A DNA stretch of 57,390 nucleotides from an uncultured Methanosarcinales archaeon (GTDB lineage Archaea > Halobacteriota > Methanosarcinia > Methanotrichales > Methanotrichaceae), in NCBI GenBank assembly GCA_903871465.1, contig CAIQHB010000023.1:1-57390 (forward strand), read 5' to 3'. This document shows, in pieces, positions 3,679 to 37,354 of this stretch (its first letter is position 1; the number at the start of each line of letters is the position of its first letter). The translations under genes were made by a program, and so were the position numbers. The notes under the pieces were generated by a model. The model ran no database searches. It saw nothing but the letters and a program-made list of their open reading frames with translations, and had not been told where the DNA came from.

Positions 3679-4593
3679 ATGAAGATTCTGGTTGCAGAGT
3701 ACGCATCCGCCCTAGGCTTGGGCGGCACCTGCGAGCTGGAGGGCCGGGCCATGCTCTCCACACTCGTCGAGAGCTTCGACCGGAGCGGCCATAGTGTCAC
3801 CTATGCCACTCACGGGCCCAAGATCAAAGCGGGCGACTACATCCTGGTGGAAGACCAGGCGGAGTTTGAGGTGTTGCTACAGACGATCAAGGTAGACGCC
3901 TGCCTCTTGATCGCACCGGATGGTCTGCAGCCGCATTTCCTGGAGATCATTGAGGGTCACACTGCAAACCTAGGCAGCAGCCCGGGCGCGGCCCACCTGG
4001 CAGCCGACAAGCTCCTCTGCACCCGGGCGCTGGCGCGCGCGAATGTCCCCGTGGCCGAGATCGTGGACAAGCCGGGTCCCGTGGAGAAAGGCTGCCATCG
4101 ATATGTAGTGAAGCCGCGCACAGGCTGCGGCTCGGAGGGAGTGCGCATCACGTCGTTCGTGAGAGCCGGGCCGGATGAGATCGTGACCCGCTACCATGAG
4201 GGCCTACACCTGTCCGCCAGCTTCATCGTGGGCCGGGAGGGCTTTTTGCCTCTGACCATCAACCGCCAGCTCATCAATTTTGAGGGCGATGGCATGAGCT
4301 ACCAGGGGAGCCAGGTGCCATACAACACGCCCCGCGCCGACGAGATCTGGGAGGCGGCGAATAAGGCGGCTCTGGCCTTAGGTTTGCGCGGGTATGCAGG
4401 GATCGACTTCGTGCTGGGGGAGCGACCTCGGGCGGTGGATGTGAACGCCCGCCCAACCACGTCCATCATAGGTATTGCCAGGGTGATGCAGGAGGAGATC
4501 GGGGAGCTGATACTGCGAGCGAGGTTTGGGGGGATGCCGGAGCAGGTGCATGTGACGGGGGAGTACACGTTCCAGAAGGGAGAGCTTGGGTGA
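3679..4593 (+). CDS. mfnD: ATP-grasp ligase, probable tyramine-L-glutamate ligase (methanofuran biosynthesis)
   Basis: The 304-aa protein has the ATP-grasp layout. The N-terminal domain begins MKILVAEYASALGLGGT; the ATP-binding domain holds YVVKPRTGCGSEGVRI (about residues 137-152), and the metal-binding end carries DVNARPTTSIIG (about 254-265), with the Asp/Asn that hold Mg-ATP. The 'EYA.A' start, size and 'E.R.M...L' helix match archaeal MfnD, which joins glutamate to tyramine during methanofuran synthesis. Other small ATP-grasp ligases cannot be excluded without alignment. AGGAG at 3664-3668 supports the ATG. It stands alone, with repeats upstream and about 300 non-coding bases downstream. 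Confidence 0.65.
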   Translation: MKILVAEYASALGLGGTCELEGRAMLSTLVESFDRSGHSVTYATHGPKIKAGDYILVEDQAEFEVLLQTIKVDACLLIAPDGLQPHFLEIIEGHTANLGSSPGAAHLAADKLLCTRALARANVPVAEIVDKPGPVEKGCHRYVVKPRTGCGSEGVRITSFVRAGPDEIVTRYHEGLHLSASFIVGREGFLPLTINRQLINFEGDGMSYQGSQVPYNTPRADEIWEAANKAALALGLRGYAGIDFVLGERPRAVDVNARPTTSIIGIARVMQEEIGELILRARFGGMPEQVHVTGEYTFQKGELG

Positions 4594-10222: not shown

Positions 10223-10954
10223 TCAAAGCCCACCCAGCCCCCATTTATTCCTGAACTCGAGCTTCTGTTGACTATTCATCCAGTGGCTGCCGTCACAATA
10301 GGGCTTGTTCTCCGACTTTCCACAGCGGCATAGAGTTACACGGTTGCGGGATTCATACATGCTGCCGTCACTGGATTCAATTGGAACACCACCACGAACC
10401 CAGATAGGGCCTTCACAGCCTTTTTGTTTATCGTGTACCAGTACCAGGGATGGTTCGAATTCTTTCTCAAACGGTTTGCCGGTCTTCTTATCCCACAGCA
10501 CCAGCCGTCCCGATGGGCAGATCATGGCCTCTTCGATGGCGGATTGCCGGGCTTCTGAATCGTCTGATTTTTGTATGAGACTTCTTATCCCACCAGCCCG
10601 GAGACAGAAACGGGAGTGATCACAGAATTCAGGGGCATCGGTCAGTTCCAGTTCAGGGCCTTCAAATACTTCTGCCTTTTCTATGTATGGTTTTCTGCTG
10701 GCGGTTTCACTCCCATCGAAAGATATCTTCAGGTGGGTTCCGTCACAGAAGGGCTTATTCTTAGATGCGCCGCAACGGCACAGGTTATAGGTCTCCTGCG
10801 ATGGGTATTCTTTTTTATCAATTAATTCTCGGGAGTGGCCCGCCTCATCAGTTACTATTATCTGTTCGAAGAGTGGCAATCCGCCGGTAACTCGATAAGG
10901 ACCGTCTTTAATTATCTTAATTCGCACTTCTTCCTTTTTGGCAGCCATAGTCAT
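10223..10954 (-). CDS. CDGSH iron-sulfur domain protein with two clusters
   Basis: The 243-aa protein has two CDGSH motifs, CRCGASKNKPFCDGTH (about 58-73) and CRCGKSENKPYCDGSH (about 208-223). Each supplies three Cys and one His for a 2Fe-2S cluster, as in mitoNEET. Between them is a region with CDHSRFC and a later Cys (MICPSGRLVL) of the divergent 4Fe-4S mitoNEET type. The probable role is electron transfer or redox sensing. The start MTMAAKKEEVRIKIIKDGPY is typical of the family, and the length fits the three-domain archaeal/bacterial form. Confidence 0.88.
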   Translation of the reverse strand: MTMAAKKEEVRIKIIKDGPYRVTGGLPLFEQIIVTDEAGHSRELIDKKEYPSQETYNLCRCGASKNKPFCDGTHLKISFDGSETASRKPYIEKAEVFEGPELELTDAPEFCDHSRFCLRAGGIRSLIQKSDDSEARQSAIEEAMICPSGRLVLWDKKTGKPFEKEFEPSLVLVHDKQKGCEGPIWVRGGVPIESSDGSMYESRNRVTLCRCGKSENKPYCDGSHWMNSQQKLEFRNKWGLGGL

Positions 10955-11196
10955 TCTATATTATTCCCTGGACTTAAGAGATGCGAGCATGGATGCAGCC
11001 TTGGGAGACGTTTCTGAGAGCATGATTATCACAAATCACACAAATTTTTATAACACGTTTGGCATTTTTTAGTATTAGTACATATCTCTTCGGGATTCAG
11101 AATGGGGAAAAGAGATCAACCTTTAAATATGTACGAAGCAGCCTATGGAATATCTCCTGAGTTGGTGAAAGCAGTCAGCAGAATGGGGTGAGTGAC

Positions 11197-11664
11197 ATGA
11201 AACATATAAGGGTTATTCTAGCCATCTTCATAATCGCTATTTTGGCAATCAGTACCGTTGACTCAGCACCTGGAACGCCTGTAAGAACGCTGATCAAAAT
11301 AGGAGCAATAAACTATGGATCTGCGGCACCCGGAAACAGCGAACCTGTAACCATCATGGTCGATGTTCTCAGTACGGCATATCCGCAGGGAATTTGTGGA
11401 TTGGACAAATCCAACTTTAAAATAGAAGTGCCAACCCACGGCTTTGGCTATACCGCCATCGCCATTAAAAATGTCCTGGGAATATCGTCTACTGCTGTGG
11501 GCTCTCCCATCACTTGCAGTTACGGGGTTCAAATAGCACCAGGGATCTTCCAGGGCAAACAATATAAATGGGCGAACTCACCAGGGGCGTTCAATTTATA
11601 CTATTTCAAGGGATTAAATCAAATAGCTGTCGCTACATTCAATCTCAAGATGTATGCGAACTGA
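11197..11664 (+). CDS. Secreted hypothetical protein
   Basis: The protein has 155 aa from ATG 11197; a GTG nine bases upstream also fits, but GGGGTGA at 11184-11190 is better spaced to the ATG. MKHIRVILAIFIIAILAIST is a signal peptide ending at VDSA. The mature part is probably all beta, with NYGSAAPGNSEPVTIMVDVL and a Cys pair (GICGLD and ITCSYG). It resembles an Ig-like or accessory surface domain. No family was recognised. Confidence 0.65.
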   Translation: MKHIRVILAIFIIAILAISTVDSAPGTPVRTLIKIGAINYGSAAPGNSEPVTIMVDVLSTAYPQGICGLDKSNFKIEVPTHGFGYTAIAIKNVLGISSTAVGSPITCSYGVQIAPGIFQGKQYKWANSPGAFNLYYFKGLNQIAVATFNLKMYAN

Positions 11665-16550: not shown

Positions 16551-16635
16551 GCGGGGATAACCAAGCCAGGCCAACGGTGATAGACTCAAGATCTATTCTC
16601 GCAGGAGTTCAAGGGTTCGAATCCCTTTCCCCGCA
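16551..16635 (+). tRNA. tRNA-Leu (anticodon CAA)
   Basis: The 85-base gene folds as a type II tRNA. The acceptor stem is GCGGGGA/TCCCCGC, the D-stem ACC/GGT, and the anticodon stem ATAGA/TCTAT with loop CTCAAGA, so the anticodon is CAA. The long variable arm is CTC-GCAG-GAG, and the T-arm is AAGGG-TTCGAAT-CCCTT. The discriminator base is A, as in leucine tRNAs. CCA is not encoded directly. Its 3' half is the attachment site of the element to the right, and the gene is left intact by the insertion. Confidence 0.93.
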
Positions 16636-16641
16636 CTCCAA
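16584..16641 (+). repeat. attL, 58-bp direct repeat within tRNA-Leu
   Basis: The 58 bases from the anticodon loop to six bases past the tRNA 3' end are identical to 31427-31484. The flanking sequence differs on both sides (GATAG versus TTATT on the left, ACAATC versus TATCCT on the right), so these are true boundaries. This is the left attachment site produced by integrase-mediated insertion; a nearby integrase gene supports it. Confidence 0.93.
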
Positions 16642-16733: not shown

Positions 16734-17609
16734 ATGAGTAGAGTAGGGGTCGATTGGCATACTAGGCCAGCAATTTTATACAGTAAAGATGTGGTGCTGG
16801 ACCGGTTTAAGCGGTATCTTATGGGCTTAGGGCTGCGTGACGAGACCATTAAGCTTTATGTTGGATTGGTGGGAGGCTTCCTCGAATATGCCAAAGCAGA
16901 TGAACCTAGCGTTGAAACGGCTGATGCCTTTAGAGCTTTTCTTATTGATAAAAGGTTATCGCGGGGCCACATCAATAATGTTTGTTTTGCCATCAAAAAA
17001 TTCTATAAAATGAATAATATCGATTGGGAGTTTATCAAGCTTAAGACTAATGATGGCCTTCCATACTATTTTGATGAAAAGGATGTTTTGGCCATATTCA
17101 GCGTATGTGCTAACATCAAGCATTTAGCTATGCTCCATACTTTATTTTATGGATGCTTGAGGAGCAGCGAGCTATGTAGGCTTGATGATAATGATCTTGA
17201 TCTTAAGACAAGGACACTAAGGCTACGCGAGACTAAAGGCGGCAGAGACGACATCGTGTATATTAGCGAAGAGTGCGCCGATATATTGAGGACCTACCTA
17301 AAAATGAAGCCCCAAATCGAAGTTGAGAACCGGATTCCTTTGTTCTATACTGATAGTGGGAATCGCTGGAGCAATGGCGATGTCAATCGGATGTTCACTT
17401 ACTATAAGGACAAAGCGAACGTTACAAAGCAGGGTGGTCCACATGTCTTTAGCCGACATACAACGGCGACTTTAATGATCGCCAAGGGCTGTGACTGCCG
17501 GATTGTGAAGGAAATACTACGCCATAAGGATATTCACACAACGCTTAGGTATGCTCATGTTGCCGATAAAACGAAGCGGTCCTCTTATGAGCAATATTTG
17601 GTGCTTTAA
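16734..17609 (+). CDS. Tyrosine recombinase (element integrase, archaeal XerC/D-like)
   Basis: The 291-aa protein starts 92 bases after attL. An N-terminal SAM-like core-binding domain spans about residues 20-95. The catalytic domain shows Arg143 in YGCLRSSELCRL, Lys168 in RETKGGRDD, the H-x-x-x-R box at His237/Arg241 (GPHVFSRHTTAT), His264 in ILRHKDIHTT and the Tyr273 nucleophile in LRYAHVADKT. All catalytic positions are present, so it should be active. It is not split by the att site, unlike SSV-type integrases. TATA-like TATATTAAAG at 16701 and a GGTGGGG RBS precede it. Confidence 0.92.
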   Translation: MSRVGVDWHTRPAILYSKDVVLDRFKRYLMGLGLRDETIKLYVGLVGGFLEYAKADEPSVETADAFRAFLIDKRLSRGHINNVCFAIKKFYKMNNIDWEFIKLKTNDGLPYYFDEKDVLAIFSVCANIKHLAMLHTLFYGCLRSSELCRLDDNDLDLKTRTLRLRETKGGRDDIVYISEECADILRTYLKMKPQIEVENRIPLFYTDSGNRWSNGDVNRMFTYYKDKANVTKQGGPHVFSRHTTATLMIAKGCDCRIVKEILRHKDIHTTLRYAHVADKTKRSSYEQYLVL

Positions 17610-18218: not shown

Positions 18219-18386
18219 ATGATTCTACGATTCTTAAGAAAACTTTGCAACAGATCGGAATCCAATCGAGCTGCACTGTTATCAATACCAAGACCAGTAT
18301 CACAAGCTTGGTCCGATGCAGATTACAATTCCTTGGAAATGATCTTTGATGGCGATCGACTAGTTATTACGCCGCAGAGGAATTAA
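18219..18386 (+). CDS. AbrB/SpoVT-like small DNA-binding protein (first of two)
   Basis: The protein has 55 aa. From residue 13 it reads RSESNRAALLSIPRPVSQAW, then SLEMIFDGDRLVITPQR. The 'A..SIPRP......W' loop followed by a strand '.L.M.FDGDRLVITP' is the swapped-hairpin AbrB/MazE pattern. Such proteins bind DNA as dimers and often act as antitoxins or transition regulators. A second AbrB-like gene follows 82 bases later. Confidence 0.6.
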   Translation: MILRFLRKLCNRSESNRAALLSIPRPVSQAWSDADYNSLEMIFDGDRLVITPQRN

Positions 18387-18468: not shown

Positions 18469-18618
18469 ATGATTTTCACTAGAAAGATCCAAAAAAATAT
18501 TAATGCAAGCATGATTACCATACCAAAACCGATAATGAATGTATGGGCCGATGTTGAACGACTTGACATGCTTTTTGATGAAGCACATGAAACAATTGTA
18601 ATTACACCAAGGAGATAA
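18469..18618 (+). CDS. AbrB/SpoVT-like small DNA-binding protein (second of two)
   Basis: The protein has 49 aa and starts at ATG 18469 behind GTGGGAG. It reads IFTRKIQKNINASMITIPKP, then DMLFDEAHETIVITPRR, giving the same AbrB pattern (ITIPKP.....W and a closing IVITP) as the preceding gene. The two probably arose by tandem duplication. No toxin-like partner was recognised beside them, so autoregulation of the element module is the simplest role. Confidence 0.6.
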   Translation: MIFTRKIQKNINASMITIPKPIMNVWADVERLDMLFDEAHETIVITPRR

Positions 18619-20719: not shown

Positions 20720-20777
20720 ATAAAAAATAAGACGCATGAACAGCCACCACTGTCATGCCAAAAGGAAGTACACATTT

Positions 20778-21023
20778 ATGATAAATAAAAGTAATAATAC
20801 AGCTATAAATAGTTTTTGCTCCTATGAGCAATTGGAAAAGTTTTTGAACACGATCTGCGTATTTGACCTGACATTCATGAAAAGGTCAATCACGGGTAGG
20901 GTCAAGGAAGTCAACGAAGACTTCTTGCTGTTGGAAATGCGAGACGGTCGGCTATTGTGTGCTCGACTTGATTGCGTTTTGGGCTTCGGCCAAGTCAAGA
21001 ATCAGCCAGTAAGGGCGGTATAA
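20778..21023 (+). CDS. Small beta-barrel-like (Sm/SH3-like) protein preceding the replication gene
   Basis: The protein has 81 aa from ATG 20778 (MINKSNNTAINSF), chosen because AAAGGAAG precedes it and its leader matches the gene at 19749. Strands SITGRVKEVNEDFLLLEM, DGRLLCARL and CVLGFG suggest a small barrel like the 19989 protein. Its stop directly abuts the ATG of the replication protein (TAAATG), so it is translated with it and may be a replication accessory or regulator. Confidence 0.55.
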   Translation: MINKSNNTAINSFCSYEQLEKFLNTICVFDLTFMKRSITGRVKEVNEDFLLLEMRDGRLLCARLDCVLGFGQVKNQPVRAV

Positions 21024-23642: not shown

Positions 23643-23669
23643 TAAATTTATATATATATTATTTTTAGT

Positions 23670-23713
23670 ACTAGACTAGTACTAGACTTAAACTAGACTT
23701 ATACTATACTTAA
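23670..23713 (+). repeat. Iteron array, left arm (four 11-bp units)
   Basis: Four tandem 11-bp units begin at 23670, 23681, 23692 and 23703. The first three start ACTAGAC and the fourth is ACTATAC, with the consensus ACTAGACTTAA. The period is exactly 11 bp, about one helical turn, so a bound protein would line up on one face. A further ACTAGACT sits at 23732. The array begins 27 bases after the replication gene stop. Confidence 0.8.
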
Positions 23714-23784
23714 TCAATAACTAGCTAGACTACTAGACTATAATAGGAATAATAAAGTACTAAGCAAAAATTTCTACAAAAAAA

Positions 23785-23798
23785 TTTCCTATAGGAAA
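23785..23798. repeat. Perfect 14-bp palindrome between the iteron arms
   Basis: TTTCCTATAGGAAA is its own reverse complement and lies near the centre of the region between the two iteron arrays, in very AT-rich DNA. It could be a melting or nick region or a regulator site. Confidence 0.55.
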
Positions 23799-23844
23799 GT
23801 TAGAAAAACTCCAAAAAGTCTAGTACACTTAGTCCGTTAGTGGT

Positions 23845-23881
23845 TTTTGTCTAGTTTATGTCTAGTTTAGGTCTAGTACTG
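23845..23881 (-). repeat. Iteron array, right arm (three 11-bp units, inverted)
   Basis: GTCTAGT begins at 23849, 23860 and 23871, again spaced 11 bp apart. Read on the minus strand the units are ACTAGAC followed by four A/T-rich bases, the same iteron as the left arm in opposite orientation. An extra AGTCTAGT lies at 23817. A second repeat pair (CTTAGTCCGTTAGTGGTTTTT and CTTAGTTCGTTAGTGATTTTT) flanks the array at about 23828 and 23891. Confidence 0.8.
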
Positions 23882-24312
23882 GACTAGTAACCTTAGTTCG
23901 TTAGTGATTTTTAGTACATAAAAGGGATGATCTGAGGACAAGGTCCTTGTTTGTATGTAAAATAGCCGTAGATAACGGAAATTTTCGTTGGCAAAGCAGT
24001 CAGAACTTCGACCGTTTTTAGAAACCTTAGATGGTTCAGTCTTGTTAGTATCCAATTTGGGTCAGAAATAAGCCTCAAAAACAATCAAATTTTCTCATAC
24101 ATAAATATATCTGTAGACGGTTCTGTAAAGTCTGTAGTACTTTTTGCTGCACGCAAAATTGGTAAAAAATTAGAAAGATAGTATATATCAAGAAGAATTA
24201 AAACGTAGTACTGCAAAACAAGGAAATTTAGTAAGTTGCTTATCAACACGTTAGGCGAACCAAATATCAAGATATCACCAAGTATTATATAGGTAAAATC
24301 CAACGTTGACAT

Positions 24313-28192: not shown

Positions 28193-28319
28193 TTGATTTA
28201 TATGTTTTGGAGCACGTGACCTAAAGATGCCACTACATGCTATGATTAATGATTGCATTATAACGTTAATTTTAATTACCGTTATGCTTATATAGTCATA
28301 ACACTAATTGATTACTGTT
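28193..28319. promoter_or_regulatory. Divergent promoter with GTTATG/CATAAC half-sites
   Basis: GTTATG at 28281, CATAAC at 28297 and GTTATG at 28317 form alternating inverted half-sites, next to a TAACGTTA palindrome at 28261. The spacing suggests binding by a dimeric protein. Since the downstream gene is a serine recombinase, these may be its recombination sub-sites or an operator. Confidence 0.45.
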
Positions 28320-29069
28320 ATGATAGCAGTGGGCTATGTCCGGGTAAGCACTGAGAACCAGAATGGCTGTGATAGCTTTGGGCTTGAGACCCAGAAAGAT
28401 ACGATCACGAAGTACTGCGCTGCAAATGCCCTAGAGCTAGTACAAATTTTTGATGACCCTGCGTTGTCTGGCAGTCTGCCCGCGTTGGAGAGACCAGGAT
28501 TACGTGCTATGCTAGATGCCGTTAAAGAAGGCGATAAGGTTATCGTGACCCGGTTAGACAGGATCGCACGGGATTTGTATCTTAGTTTATGGGTGGAAAA
28601 AGAGATACGAAAGGCAGGCGCAGAGCTTATCAGCATAAGCGAGCCTTATCGATGGAACGACCCAACGCAAAAGCTTCTCCTGAATATCATAATGAGCTTT
28701 GCGGAGTTTGAGCGGTCCTTGATTACTTCCCGGTTGTCCAGCGGGCGCAAGACTAAGGCCCGTCAGGGTGGCTATGCAGGTGGTAAGGCACCGATCGGTT
28801 ACAAGGCGGAACGTGGCGACAAAGCCCTTACCTTGGATGAAGAGAAGACCAGCACGGTTCGCAGGGTCTTTGAACTGCGCGATGAAAAGCCCGAAGCTTC
28901 ACTTAAGACGATTGCTGATATGCTGAACGGCGAGGGCTATACATCAAAGGAAGGAAAACAATTTCATCCTATGCAAGTGAAAAGGATCTTGGATAGAAAG
29001 TCCTTTTATGAAGGCATCTATAGGTATTCGGGAGTTGAATCTGAAGGGCAACACCAGAATATTATTTAG
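28320..29069 (+). CDS. Serine recombinase (resolvase/invertase family)
   Basis: The protein has 249 aa from ATG 28320; a TTG 12 bases earlier is possible. The nucleophile Ser10 is in MIAVGYVRVSTENQNG. The conserved LARPGLRAML-like segment is ERPGLRAMLDAVKEGD, followed by VIVTRLDRIARDLYL with the catalytic Arg residues, and MSFAEFERSLITSRLSSGRK links to the E-helix. A recombinase-type DNA-binding domain follows (GGKAPIGYKAERG, ADMLNGEGYTSKEGK). It is shorter than large serine integrases. Since the element already has a tyrosine integrase, a resolvase, inversion or second-integration role is likely. Confidence 0.9.
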   Translation: MIAVGYVRVSTENQNGCDSFGLETQKDTITKYCAANALELVQIFDDPALSGSLPALERPGLRAMLDAVKEGDKVIVTRLDRIARDLYLSLWVEKEIRKAGAELISISEPYRWNDPTQKLLLNIIMSFAEFERSLITSRLSSGRKTKARQGGYAGGKAPIGYKAERGDKALTLDEEKTSTVRRVFELRDEKPEASLKTIADMLNGEGYTSKEGKQFHPMQVKRILDRKSFYEGIYRYSGVESEGQHQNII

Positions 29070-29278: not shown

Positions 29279-29407
29279 ATGGTATCACTCACAGTCTATA
29301 ATGGCGCTACAAAGATCAGAGGCAACAAGCTCTATCTCTTGCTACAACCGATTCAGAGAAATGTAAATTACTATCCTGGGAATCAATCAAGAGGGATATT
29401 TAAATGA
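29279..29407 (+). pseudogene. N-terminal fragment of a metallo-beta-lactamase-fold (RNase J-like) protein
   Basis: The 42-codon frame begins MVSLTVYNGATKIRGNKLYL, which resembles the first strand pair of archaeal MBL/beta-CASP proteins (V.GG..EIGGNK.L.). It then loses similarity and stops at TGA, overlapping the next ATG. The HxHxDH metal site is absent. It is either a truncated relic or a short peptide whose translation now feeds the restriction gene. Confidence 0.45.
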
Positions 29408-31188
29408 AAGCGACAGATAATAAGCTGCTCGATTTGCTCACTTTCCAGAATCAATACGTAATCCCAATTTATCAGCGAAAATATAGTTGGAATGAAGATA
29501 ATTGCGAAAAATTATGGGATGACATACTTAGTGTGGCAAATCATCCTAACTTCCCAAGTCATTTTATTGGATCAATAATATATATTCGGGGGATTAAAGA
29601 AAAACTGGTAGGGGAAGTCGAAGAGCTATTGGTAATAGATGGCCAACAGCGTTTAATCACAGTGTCATTGCTATTAGCAGCTCTTGCCAAAGCCTTTGAG
29701 GATTCTGATAAAAAAACCAGTCAACAGATCAGAGAATATTACTTATTCAATATGCTTCAGGAAGGCGATAAACGTTATAGGCTGAAACCAACTGATGGCG
29801 ATAGAGAAGAATACTTTTCTCTGCTGGATGAAAAGAAGAAGTCATCATCTTCATCAAAATTTACAGAAAATTATTTATTCTTTGAAAAAAAATTTTGTAC
29901 AATGGAATTAGATTTTTTAAAAAAAATTTACCAAGGAATTAGCAAACTTAAGATCGTCGAAGTAACCCTAAAGCATGGTGAAGATGATCCTCAACTAATC
30001 TTCGAGAGCGTTAATTCTACGGGCTTGGGTCTATCTAAAGCAGATTTAATAAGGAACTTCATCCTCATGGACTTGGAACCAGAGAAGCAAAAGGATCTTT
30101 ATGAAACATGGTCTCAAATGGAGAAGAGTTTTGTCGATTCTGAGCTGCAAGAGAAAACCGATCGCTTTATCAAAGATTACCTAACCATCAAGAATAACGG
30201 CATTATCCCTACGATGAGGGAGATATATAACGTGTTCCAGCACCATTACATCGATCGATCAATGAACGAGGATATCAAGGATATAATCGACGATATTTAT
30301 AAATATTCAAAATACTATATCAAATTGTCTTCATCTGGAGAAACCGATAAATATATAAATAGCATTTTAACCGATATCAGGGCTCTAAGAGTTGATGTCG
30401 CTTACCCTTTTCTCATGGAGGTCTATGATGATTGTTGTCAAAAAAGGATTACGAGAGAAGAGTTTATCGAGATATTAAAGTTCATAGAAAGTTACGTCTT
30501 CAGAAGGGCAATTTGCGGCGTGCCAACAAATTCGCTTAATAAGACCTTTGCTACACTAAGCAAAGAATTAGTCAAAGATAAGGAACACTATCTTGAAAGC
30601 TTCAAGGCGGCAATTATACTAAAGGAATCCCATCGGCGCTTTCCTGATGATGATGAGTTCAAACGAGTAATGATGGTTAAAGATCTCTATCACCTTCGCA
30701 GTTGCGAATATTATCTGACCAAGCTTGAGAAACACCATCCTCATAAGGAAGTTAATATCGATGAATGCACTACCGAGCATATCATGCCGCAGACTTTATC
30801 AGTTACTTGGAAGAATGAACTGGGTGAAAACTGGGAAGAGATTTATAATAGGTATATTCACACCATTGGCAACCTGACATTAGCGGCTTACAACATTGAA
30901 TATTCTAATAGTCCATTCATAAGAAAACGTGACCTAGTAGACGAAAACTGTCATAAAGTCGGATTGGGATACAGCCCTCTGCGTCTTAATGAGGGCTTGG
31001 CTGATTTGGATCATTGGAATGAGGCCGAAATCCTTAAGCGAGCGCATACGCTTGTAATGCTCGCAACTGTAGTTTGGCCATATCCGCAACTTTCACAAGA
31101 GATCCTAGACAAATATCGAGTCGAAAAAAGTGCGGATATCAATAGAAACAACGATCTGGAAGATGCTGTTTCCTTTGGTGAGGACTAG
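29404..31188 (+). CDS. GmrSD-type restriction protein (DUF262 + DUF1524)
   Basis: This 594-aa protein is probably a defence nuclease. The N-terminal DUF262 (GmrS-like) domain begins after LLTFQNQYVIPIYQRKYSWN and carries the DGQQR motif (about residues 79-83, VIDGQQRLITVSLL). The C-terminal DUF1524 (GmrD-like) HNH domain has TEHIMPQTL (about 457) and HTIGNLTLAAYNIEYSNSP (about 486-504), with His and Asn at HNH positions. GmrSD and relatives cut modified or foreign DNA in a nucleotide-dependent way. It is the last gene before attR, a normal position for cargo. It overlaps the upstream MBL-like fragment by four bases. Confidence 0.88.
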   Translation: MKATDNKLLDLLTFQNQYVIPIYQRKYSWNEDNCEKLWDDILSVANHPNFPSHFIGSIIYIRGIKEKLVGEVEELLVIDGQQRLITVSLLLAALAKAFEDSDKKTSQQIREYYLFNMLQEGDKRYRLKPTDGDREEYFSLLDEKKKSSSSSKFTENYLFFEKKFCTMELDFLKKIYQGISKLKIVEVTLKHGEDDPQLIFESVNSTGLGLSKADLIRNFILMDLEPEKQKDLYETWSQMEKSFVDSELQEKTDRFIKDYLTIKNNGIIPTMREIYNVFQHHYIDRSMNEDIKDIIDDIYKYSKYYIKLSSSGETDKYINSILTDIRALRVDVAYPFLMEVYDDCCQKRITREEFIEILKFIESYVFRRAICGVPTNSLNKTFATLSKELVKDKEHYLESFKAAIILKESHRRFPDDDEFKRVMMVKDLYHLRSCEYYLTKLEKHHPHKEVNIDECTTEHIMPQTLSVTWKNELGENWEEIYNRYIHTIGNLTLAAYNIEYSNSPFIRKRDLVDENCHKVGLGYSPLRLNEGLADLDHWNEAEILKRAHTLVMLATVVWPYPQLSQEILDKYRVEKSADINRNNDLEDAVSFGED

Positions 31189-31426
31189 GAATAAGCTTTT
31201 AATTTTTTTAATAATGCATTAATATTATTTAAGCAGCAGTTTTTGGATGTGAGGACGCATATTTTGCATTAATAACGCTCTAAACTAAATATATCGTATA
31301 TAATCAGCCTAAAAGTTTAAATACATGGCCTAACTAATAAATGGACGAGCAAATTGAGGCCAATCATAAAACCAAGCTTAATCGATTGGATTGGAGCAGA
31401 ATAGACAACGTATATGGAGTTATTAT

Positions 31427-31484
31427 ACTCAAGATCTATTCTCGCAGGAGTTCAAGGGTTCGAATCCCTTTCCCCGCACTCCAA
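31427..31484 (+). repeat. attR, 58-bp direct repeat of the tRNA-Leu 3' half
   Basis: This is identical over 58 bases to 16584-16641, starting at ACTCAAGATC and ending at CACTCCAA. Upstream sequence does not form the 5' half of a tRNA, so this is the copy left by integration, not a gene. The integrated length, counting one att copy, is 14,843 bp (16584-31426). Confidence 0.93.
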
Positions 31485-31666
31485 TATCCTTGGTGATAGT
31501 GATTTTCATGATTTTTATCTTGGTTTGGTTCACCCCTTGAGAATAGATGTGCATCTATTTTGGGGTGGGAGACTTGGTAAAGGCAAAGGTTGATTGGCAG
31601 TAAAAGGTTAAATTTGCCAATTTTAGAAGCTTTGAGTCATAGTTTATATATTTAATAGTAGGTGTT

Positions 31667-35075: not shown

Positions 35076-35636
35076 GTGTTACTGGGTGCAGTCCAAAGCG
35101 TTTTATACGCCGCTTGCAAATATGTATTAATGGACTTGATATTGTTCGTCGTGTTTCTTGCCGCTTCGGTGGCTAGCGGGATTTACTACACAGTCAAGTA
35201 CATTCGAACCAAGAAAACCGTTTTCCTAATAGCTGGCTTGGCCTTAACGTTCATAGTGATTGCTCTCATTATTCTTTACTTTTTGCCGGAAGCATCTGCA
35301 TCTCCCATGATGCCTTACGGTCCTGCCTATGTATTCAACCACACGCATTTCCAACCGTCGCCCCCAAGTCCGACGCCTGCGACCAGCCTCCTGACTAACG
35401 CTTCTCCGACTCCAATTGTTCCGAACATTGATTACAGGCCCACGGCTAACGTTTCCGCGGTTGCTACACCAACGCCAGCAGCGACTTCTCCAGTGTTGTT
35501 CGTCATGTTGCTTGCCGCTTCGGTGGCTAGCGGGATTTACTGCACAGTCAAGTACATTCGAACCAAGAAAACCGTTTTCCTAATAGCTGGCTTGGCCTTA
35601 ACGTTCATCGTGATTGCGCTCATTTTTCAATGGTAA
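35076..35636 (+). CDS. Membrane protein with a duplicated two-helix module
   Basis: The 186-aa protein has a TTG start at 35076. The module FLAASVASGIYYTVKYIRTK plus TVFLIAGLALTFIVIALI occurs at about residues 26-65 and again at 146-185. The two copies are joined by a Pro/Ser/Thr linker (PSPPSPTPATSLL). The repeat is almost perfect in the DNA (35142-35270 and 35496-35624), so the duplication is recent. The TTG start may not be right; an ATG at 35130 would keep both modules. Its last seven bases overlap the radical SAM gene. No family was recognised. Confidence 0.6.
   Translation: MLLGAVQSVLYAACKYVLMDLILFVVFLAASVASGIYYTVKYIRTKKTVFLIAGLALTFIVIALIILYFLPEASASPMMPYGPAYVFNHTHFQPSPPSPTPATSLLTNASPTPIVPNIDYRPTANVSAVATPTPAATSPVLFVMLLAASVASGIYCTVKYIRTKKTVFLIAGLALTFIVIALIFQW
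35142..35270 (+). repeat. 129-bp direct repeat, copy 1
   Basis: This is nearly identical to 35496-35624, with only a handful of substitutions. The two lie in the same reading frame of one gene and encode the same two membrane helices. Confidence 0.9.
35496..35624 (+). repeat. 129-bp direct repeat, copy 2
   Basis: This is the second copy of 35142-35270, 354 bp downstream and in frame. One visible change turns a Tyr into a Cys (IYYT to IYCT). Confidence 0.9.
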
Positions 35637-36736: not shown

Positions 36737-37354
36737 TTCTAAGGGGTTGTCGGAATATAAATTGCACACTTTCTAAGGCGATATTGAATAAGCTAAATCG
36801 CTTTCTATAATTATCTTTTTGGCCAAGCCCCTAACTGAAATTTGTTCGTTTTATTTTAATAGCTCTTCTAGAACTACCATCTTGAGAATAGTTCCAATTC
36901 GATATCAGTGATCTTGTATCCGATCAACTACCCAGGAACAACGCCTAGAATTTTGACACTTGGATATCGATTTAACTCTTAACCGAAGACGCATGGAGTG
37001 TTACTCGTAAGAAAGTGCGGATATCCCTTTCCCCGCACTCCAATATATTTATTGATAACGATTTTGGGCTACTAAGTGCTGGAGTTATTGCTTTTCGTCG
37101 AGGAATTAGGAGCAAGGACACTATTAATTTCTTCCCGCTAATTTGAGCAGTATCTATTATCCTCTAAATCAGGAACAACACTTAATAAAATAATCGTGCT
37201 TAAATTAAATATCATCCATAAGAATCCAAAAATATTTAAGCAAGAAGCACTTATATCTGTTTGGACATCCGCGATGCAAAAATGCTTCAGGTATGAAGAC
37301 CGTTTCATGTCAATAGGAACATATCTACATGAAAGGCCAAAATAAAGGGAAACT
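36737..37354. other. Intergenic region containing a partial third att copy
   Basis: No gene was accepted; a minus-strand frame at 37138-37389 has no support. The notable content is the att-like sequence at 37023-37065. TATA-like TATTTAAGC (about 37237) is not clearly tied to a gene. Confidence 0.4.
37023..37065 (+). repeat. Third, partial copy of the tRNA-Leu att core
   Basis: The 24 bases at 37023-37046 (ATCCCTTTCCCCGCACTCCA plus ATAT) are identical to the end of attR and its first flanking bases. The next ~19 bases (TTGATAACGATTTT region) still match the sequence after attR with about six differences. Upstream the tRNA similarity stops within the T-arm. This looks like the worn distal end of an earlier insertion at the same tRNA. 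Confidence 0.7.

Follow-up and report, generated by a model that had tools for sequence, protein, structure and literature searches.

Knowledge of the origins of archaeal PrimPol-SF3 replicons comes mainly from pRN1, whose origin turned out to be a stem-loop and was said to lack iterons. In phage P4, the alpha protein works with ori1/crr. A C-terminal winged helix lets this protein bind repeats (PMC4234260). The authors of the pRN1 studies hold that primase-SF3-winged-helix Reps use stem-loops, not iterons (PMC4234260, PMC3869888). In PICIs, the origin is described as always being a pair of iteron sets with an AT-rich region between them, directly 3' of the initiator gene, and no other known bacterial replicon is said to be organised in this way (PMC6092414). 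Here, we analysed a stretch of 57,390 nucleotides from an uncultured Methanosarcinales archaeon (the window; contig CAIQHB010000023.1 of assembly GCA_903871465.1), in which two mirrored arrays of 11-bp-phased repeats follow a primase-helicase gene. According to the sequence comparisons below, the arrays probably serve an integrated Methanothrix element as replication origin and are probably recognised by the C-terminal half of its Rep; most likely, this putative origin of an archaeal PrimPol-SF3 element follows the PICI/SaPI layout.

The window belongs to a genome of the order that includes the methane-producing archaeon Methanothrix, and Methanothrix MAGs are the nearest named relatives. The arrays lie in a low-GC element of about 14.8 kb, which extends from a tRNA-Leu gene to the second att copy (Table 1) and is a mobile element integrated in a Methanothrix chromosome. 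In addition to the tyrosine integrase, the element encodes a serine recombinase (28308-29069) resembling CcrB of SCCmec (E 3e-33, below the cut-off). A GmrSD-type restriction enzyme with both domains (29404-31188) lies at the right end of the element and is likely defence cargo. The closest relative, locus L082 (Rep identity 47%), keeps the gene order RHH, 95-aa protein, Rep. For two short AbrB-like proteins encoded in tandem (18219-18386 and 18469-18618), the match in L082 is one and the same protein of 95 aa (64 and 38% identity). A third, shorter att-like copy (31464-31506 versus 37023-37065) has 21 bp identical to the tRNA-Leu end and 43 bp that are 86% identical to the second copy, suggesting a second tandem element or a remnant with S-layer protein, TPR and radical SAM genes. 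A 133-bp direct repeat (95% identical; 35142-35274 and 35496-35628) lies ahead of the radical SAM gene.

Table 1. Features of the integrated element and its iteron region (positions in the window).
Feature	Position	Strand	Remarks
att copy 1	16581..16641	+	3' part of tRNA-Leu (gene 16551-16636)
Tyrosine integrase	16734..17609	+	adjoins tRNA
RHH-like protein, 63 aa	19491..19682	+	weak RelB-type match, below cut-off
RHH-like protein, 58 aa	20385..20561	+	weak likeness to pRN1 ORF56 family (E 0.028, below cut-off); 52% identical in L082
95-aa protein	20736..21023	+	directly upstream of rep; 73% identical in L082
Rep, primase-helicase, 872 aa	21024..23642	+	PrimPol-like N-terminal half, D5_N/SF3 helicase, short C-terminal domain; proposed iteron binder
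AT tract TATATATATATT	23643..23668		between rep stop codon and left arm
Left iteron arm	23669..23739	+	ACTAGACT-type units at 23670, 23681, 23692, 23703 (ACTATAC), 23724 (GCTAGACT) and 23732
AT-rich centre	23740..23816		candidate melting region; 77 bp, 78% AT
14-bp palindrome TTTCCTATAGGAAA	23785..23798		perfect; probably incidental
Right iteron arm, inverted	23817..23888	-	GTCTAGT units at 23818, 23849, 23860 and 23871
29-nt repeat, copy 1 (CTAGTACACTTAGTCCGTTAGTGGTTTTT)	23820..23848	+	
29-nt repeat, copy 2	23884..23912	+	86% identical to copy 1; the copies flank the right array
Terminator-like hairpin	23933..23949	+	behind the arrays; one found versus 0.4 expected
att copy 2	31424..31484	+	right element end; 61 bp, 98% identical

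The Rep of the element matches TIGR01613 with 180.8 bits (cut-off 108.7). In its N-terminal half, visual inspection shows PrimPol-type motifs, and PHROG gives primase matches; since no Pfam PrimPol model matched this half, we infer its PrimPol label from these features. Among solved structures, that of the SaPI5 primase-helicase (7ola) is closest in sequence (E 2.3e-17). The structural model of the C-terminal half is poor (pLDDT 54), and a fold search with this low-confidence half returned D5-type helicases and SaPI5, with no safe winged-helix call.

Three exact ACTAGAC units (23670, 23681 and 23692) repeat with an 11-bp period, and exact GTCTAGT units stand inverted at 23849, 23860 and 23871. 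An earlier note on this DNA had described four left units with this period, three inverted units and a position right behind the replication gene. The inverted units and the position were confirmed, the left array starting 28 bp behind the rep stop codon; in the left array, three of the four units are exact and that at 23703 (ACTATAC) has one mismatch. Beyond those units, GCTAGACT at 23724 and ACTAGACT at 23732 extend the left arm, and one more inverted unit lies at 23818. The segments 23669-23709 and 23849-23889 are 85% complementary over 41 nt, and spacers of matching rank in the two arms are partly alike. The arrays end at about 23890, and the interval given earlier (23643-24312) ends simply where the non-coding gap stops. 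Of 300 dinucleotide shuffles of the element, none contained a mirrored pair of 3-copy 6-mer arrays (any 3-copy 6-mer array, 12 of 300), which excludes chance for the arrays, and the array pattern was found at one place only in the 3.13-Mb assembly. The palindrome between the arrays is perfect, as had been noted, but unremarkable: one of equal length occurs in 57 of 500 shuffles (11%) of that interval, and it adds nothing to the origin case. Cumulative GC skew, which had been suggested as a check of the origin, has no turning point in the element and is uninformative because the element genes run one way.

To compare the locus with others, Rep relatives were gathered from the host order, IMG/VR and named genomes, including M. 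harundinacea 6Ac and M. soehngenii GP6. The cluster search was blind to the letters of the window: in each locus, 8-mers of whatever sequence were considered if they recurred on both strands within 350 bp, and at least five exact copies in mixed orientation counted as a cluster. Such clusters were found in 14 of 37 rep-3' regions versus 4 of 356 control tiles of the same loci (Fisher 8e-13), and in 13 of 36 regions when the window was left out, these counts not being independent since the loci are partly related to each other (e.g. L090/L091 and L039/L040/L041). In a held-out set, drawn from other families of the class, clusters were present in 5 of 20 rep-3' regions versus 0 of 65 tiles (p 5e-4). 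When one mismatch was allowed, 21 of 42 regions exceeded every shuffle. The clusters are placed behind rep or at its 3' end and comprise at least ten different iteron sequences, such as GGACCATT (L090), GACCATTA (L091), GACCATCA (L131), GACCGGCA (L129), GTTATCGG (L042), GGACGCAA (L037), CTATAGCA (L127) and CTACAGGA (L137). At this sensitivity, about half of the relatives show no cluster. In viral contigs, the strict array pattern had no match, and none of the 27 contig matches to a loose CTAGAC pattern encodes a Rep relative; therefore, the array letters themselves are not shared. Plasmid pGP6 (L141) has no Rep relative. In L082, only three ACTAG motifs remain in the 150 bp ahead of an IS200/IS605-like insertion at the origin position. 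The absence of the arrays from related elements, named in the earlier note as evidence against an origin, is thus observed in part, namely in the half or so of the relatives without a cluster and in the closest one with its insertion; in the others, mixed-orientation clusters with other letters occupy the corresponding place. Concerning this insertion, the L082 segment 10800-11380 has a small ORF (10859-11311, minus strand) between two copies of CCCCGATGCAAGCATCGGGG and looks like the IS200/IS605 type.

Neighbouring spacings in the clusters fall at 9-12, 20-22, 31-33 and 41-43 bp, and those above 14 bp follow a 10.5-bp period (R 0.69, n=38) rather than a 3-bp period (R 0.19). Counted outward from the centre, the left-arm spacings are 8, 21, 11, 11, 11 in the window, 9, 21, 11, 11, 9 in L090, 9, 21, 11, 11 in L091, 9, 43, 11, 10, 10 in L131 and 9, 32, 11, 12 in L129, a pattern that recurs across loci with different letters. 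In the last four loci, the clusters occupy a segment of the rep frame that follows the SF3 part and precedes the C-terminus, and they have 11-bp periods. An 11-bp period within a reading frame cannot serve a protein repeat, so that the selection is on the DNA. In addition, the centre between the arms was more AT-rich than both flanks in 8 of 8 loci measured, the window values being 78% for the centre versus 69 and 66% for the flanks.

The phasing also bears on a different explanation, namely that the two arms form one long hairpin or cruciform, a stem-loop origin like that of pRN1, the repeats being by-products of stem duplication. The pRN1 origin is a stem-loop of about 100 nt located 54 bp behind orf904, and stem-loops were proposed by its authors for primase-SF3-winged-helix Reps (PMC4234260, PMC3869888). 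The window strand folds better than its shuffles (z -4.0), L131, L129 and L042 reach z-scores of about -6.5 to -6.9, and the partly alike spacers of matching rank would fit a duplicated stem. However, inverted arrays fold by construction, and the z-scores (-6.9 to -1.6 in the other loci) therefore neither prove nor exclude a role for a hairpin. L091 (z -2.2) and L137 (z -1.6) fold weakly and yet retain their arrays, and other clusters interleave orientations (+--+++---) in a way that gives no single hairpin. The helical phasing, with spacing steps of about 10.5 bp, fits a protein on one face of the DNA, and we consider a hairpin origin unlikely.

The Rep sequences point to the identity of this protein. 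The Reps of L126 and L131 are 75% identical in the N-terminal half and have nothing in common beyond it; these two loci have different iterons. Between L131 and L090/L091, identity (43-46%) is confined to the C-terminal half; their iterons are GGACCATCA and GGACCATTA, and the iteron regions of L131 and L091 can no longer be aligned as DNA. In L039, L040 and L041, the C-terminal halves are 62-71% identical, and the common iteron is (T/C)C(G/C)CCTCCA. As judged from these alignments, iteron identity follows the SF3/C-terminal half of Rep, a co-variation for which physical linkage may account in part. The rep genes of L131 and L126 constitute a natural domain swap: their N-terminal halves are nearly the same, the helicase halves that follow are unrelated, and each of these comes with iterons of its own.

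The ribbon-helix-helix type of regulator (RHH), which the earlier note had offered as the other possible binder beside the PrimPol-SF3 protein, is less likely. Under that explanation, the arrays would be an operator or centromere of the small RHH proteins, serving autoregulation or parC-like partition. Two RHH-like genes do lie upstream of rep, and the 11-bp period resembles that of parC of plasmid R1, whose 11-bp repeats are bound by an RHH protein. However, no partition NTPase (ParA/ParM match) was found among the element ORFs scanned, and the array lies behind rep, not at the promoter of the RHH genes. Furthermore, the clusters of relatives are inside the rep gene, and their iterons follow the C-terminal half of Rep; an RHH site is thus even less probable than a hairpin origin. 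It is very improbable that the arrays are a transcription terminator or RNA structure behind rep, since the terminator-like hairpin of Table 1 lies outside them, an Rfam search gave no match, and termination needs no phased direct repeats, which relatives carry inside coding sequence.

L039 is the plasmid pH6Ac (circular, 11,991 bp), which occurs naturally in M. harundinacea 6Ac and has a mixed-orientation cluster at the 3' end of rep (4372-4583). Upstream of its rep lies a perfect 11-bp tandem array of GTTCGAGCAAA (6.5 copies, 942-1013), and this upstream array, instead of the 3' cluster, may be the true origin of the plasmid. Together with one inverted copy, the tandem array forms the region 812-1013, which may also be a second origin, an incompatibility site or a partition site.

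A replication origin with Rep as the predicted binder, as the earlier note had proposed, is thus favoured: the position, mirrored layout and phasing are the same in many related replicons, and the iteron sequence tracks the helicase/C-terminal half. This reading is supported by the exclusion of chance, the recurrence at rep 3' ends, the phasing, the AT-rich centre and the co-variation, as well as by the cluster of a natural plasmid, the SaPI5 primase-helicase as closest solved structure and the PICI origin layout. It is weakened by the lack of a cluster in about half of the relatives, the insertion in L082, the upstream array of pH6Ac and the possible linkage. In the proposed mechanism, the element would excise first, and Rep would then recognise the 11-bp-phased ACTAGAC units through its C-terminal half. 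As the copies of the two arms face each other, one Rep assembly would form on each side of the 77-bp AT-rich centre, the two in head-to-head orientation, and together they would melt this centre. Two SF3 hexamers could then load and run outwards, and the primase domain would start both strands, giving a bidirectional start.

If the Methanothrix elements and pH6Ac use mirrored iterons, they would offer a testable origin for vectors in the genus. On a wider scale, mirrored phased iterons with an AT-rich core at the 3' end of the helicase gene might be a cross-domain hallmark of D5/SF3 replication modules, a generalisation that we put forward with slightly more doubt than confidence. Archaeal PrimPol elements would then share the head-to-head loading of bacterial phage satellites, and many would place the origin inside the rep frame, so that the half of Rep that reads the DNA would be passed on together with its target as a single swappable cassette. 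If true, archaeal elements and bacterial phage satellites would have an initiation scheme in common, and a simple sequence rule would allow such origins to be found and compatibility groups to be predicted.

Among the known systems, SCCmec Cch2 is similar in that direct repeats just behind a D5-family helicase gene are bound by the C-terminal domain of the helicase; it differs in having three 5-nt repeats, a tolerated deletion of inverted repeats and a separate primase (PMC7581432). The alpha protein of P4 is likewise a single TIGR01613-family primase-helicase, but its primase domain is of the bacterial type. The archaeal plasmid pRN1 of Sulfolobus shares an RHH gene upstream of a primase-SF3 Rep and a cis-acting origin just behind rep (PMC4234260, PMC3869888); in contrast to the phased, mirrored iterons of the window, its origin is a stem-loop stated to be without iteron structure. 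Compared with PICI/SaPI elements, which comprise the Staphylococcus pathogenicity islands and Gram-negative PICIs, the window element has an archaeal host and a Rep with a PrimPol-like (AEP-type) N-terminal half, and in several relatives the putative origin lies inside the rep reading frame. The likeness to PICI/SaPI elements concerns the origin layout and Rep, without the element itself being claimed as a PICI: the arrays stand immediately 3' of the primase-helicase gene, with the first unit 28 bp past the stop, the left and right arms form two iteron sets with an AT-rich region between them, and the Rep is of the D5/SF3 type, the primase-helicase of SaPI5 being its closest solved structure.
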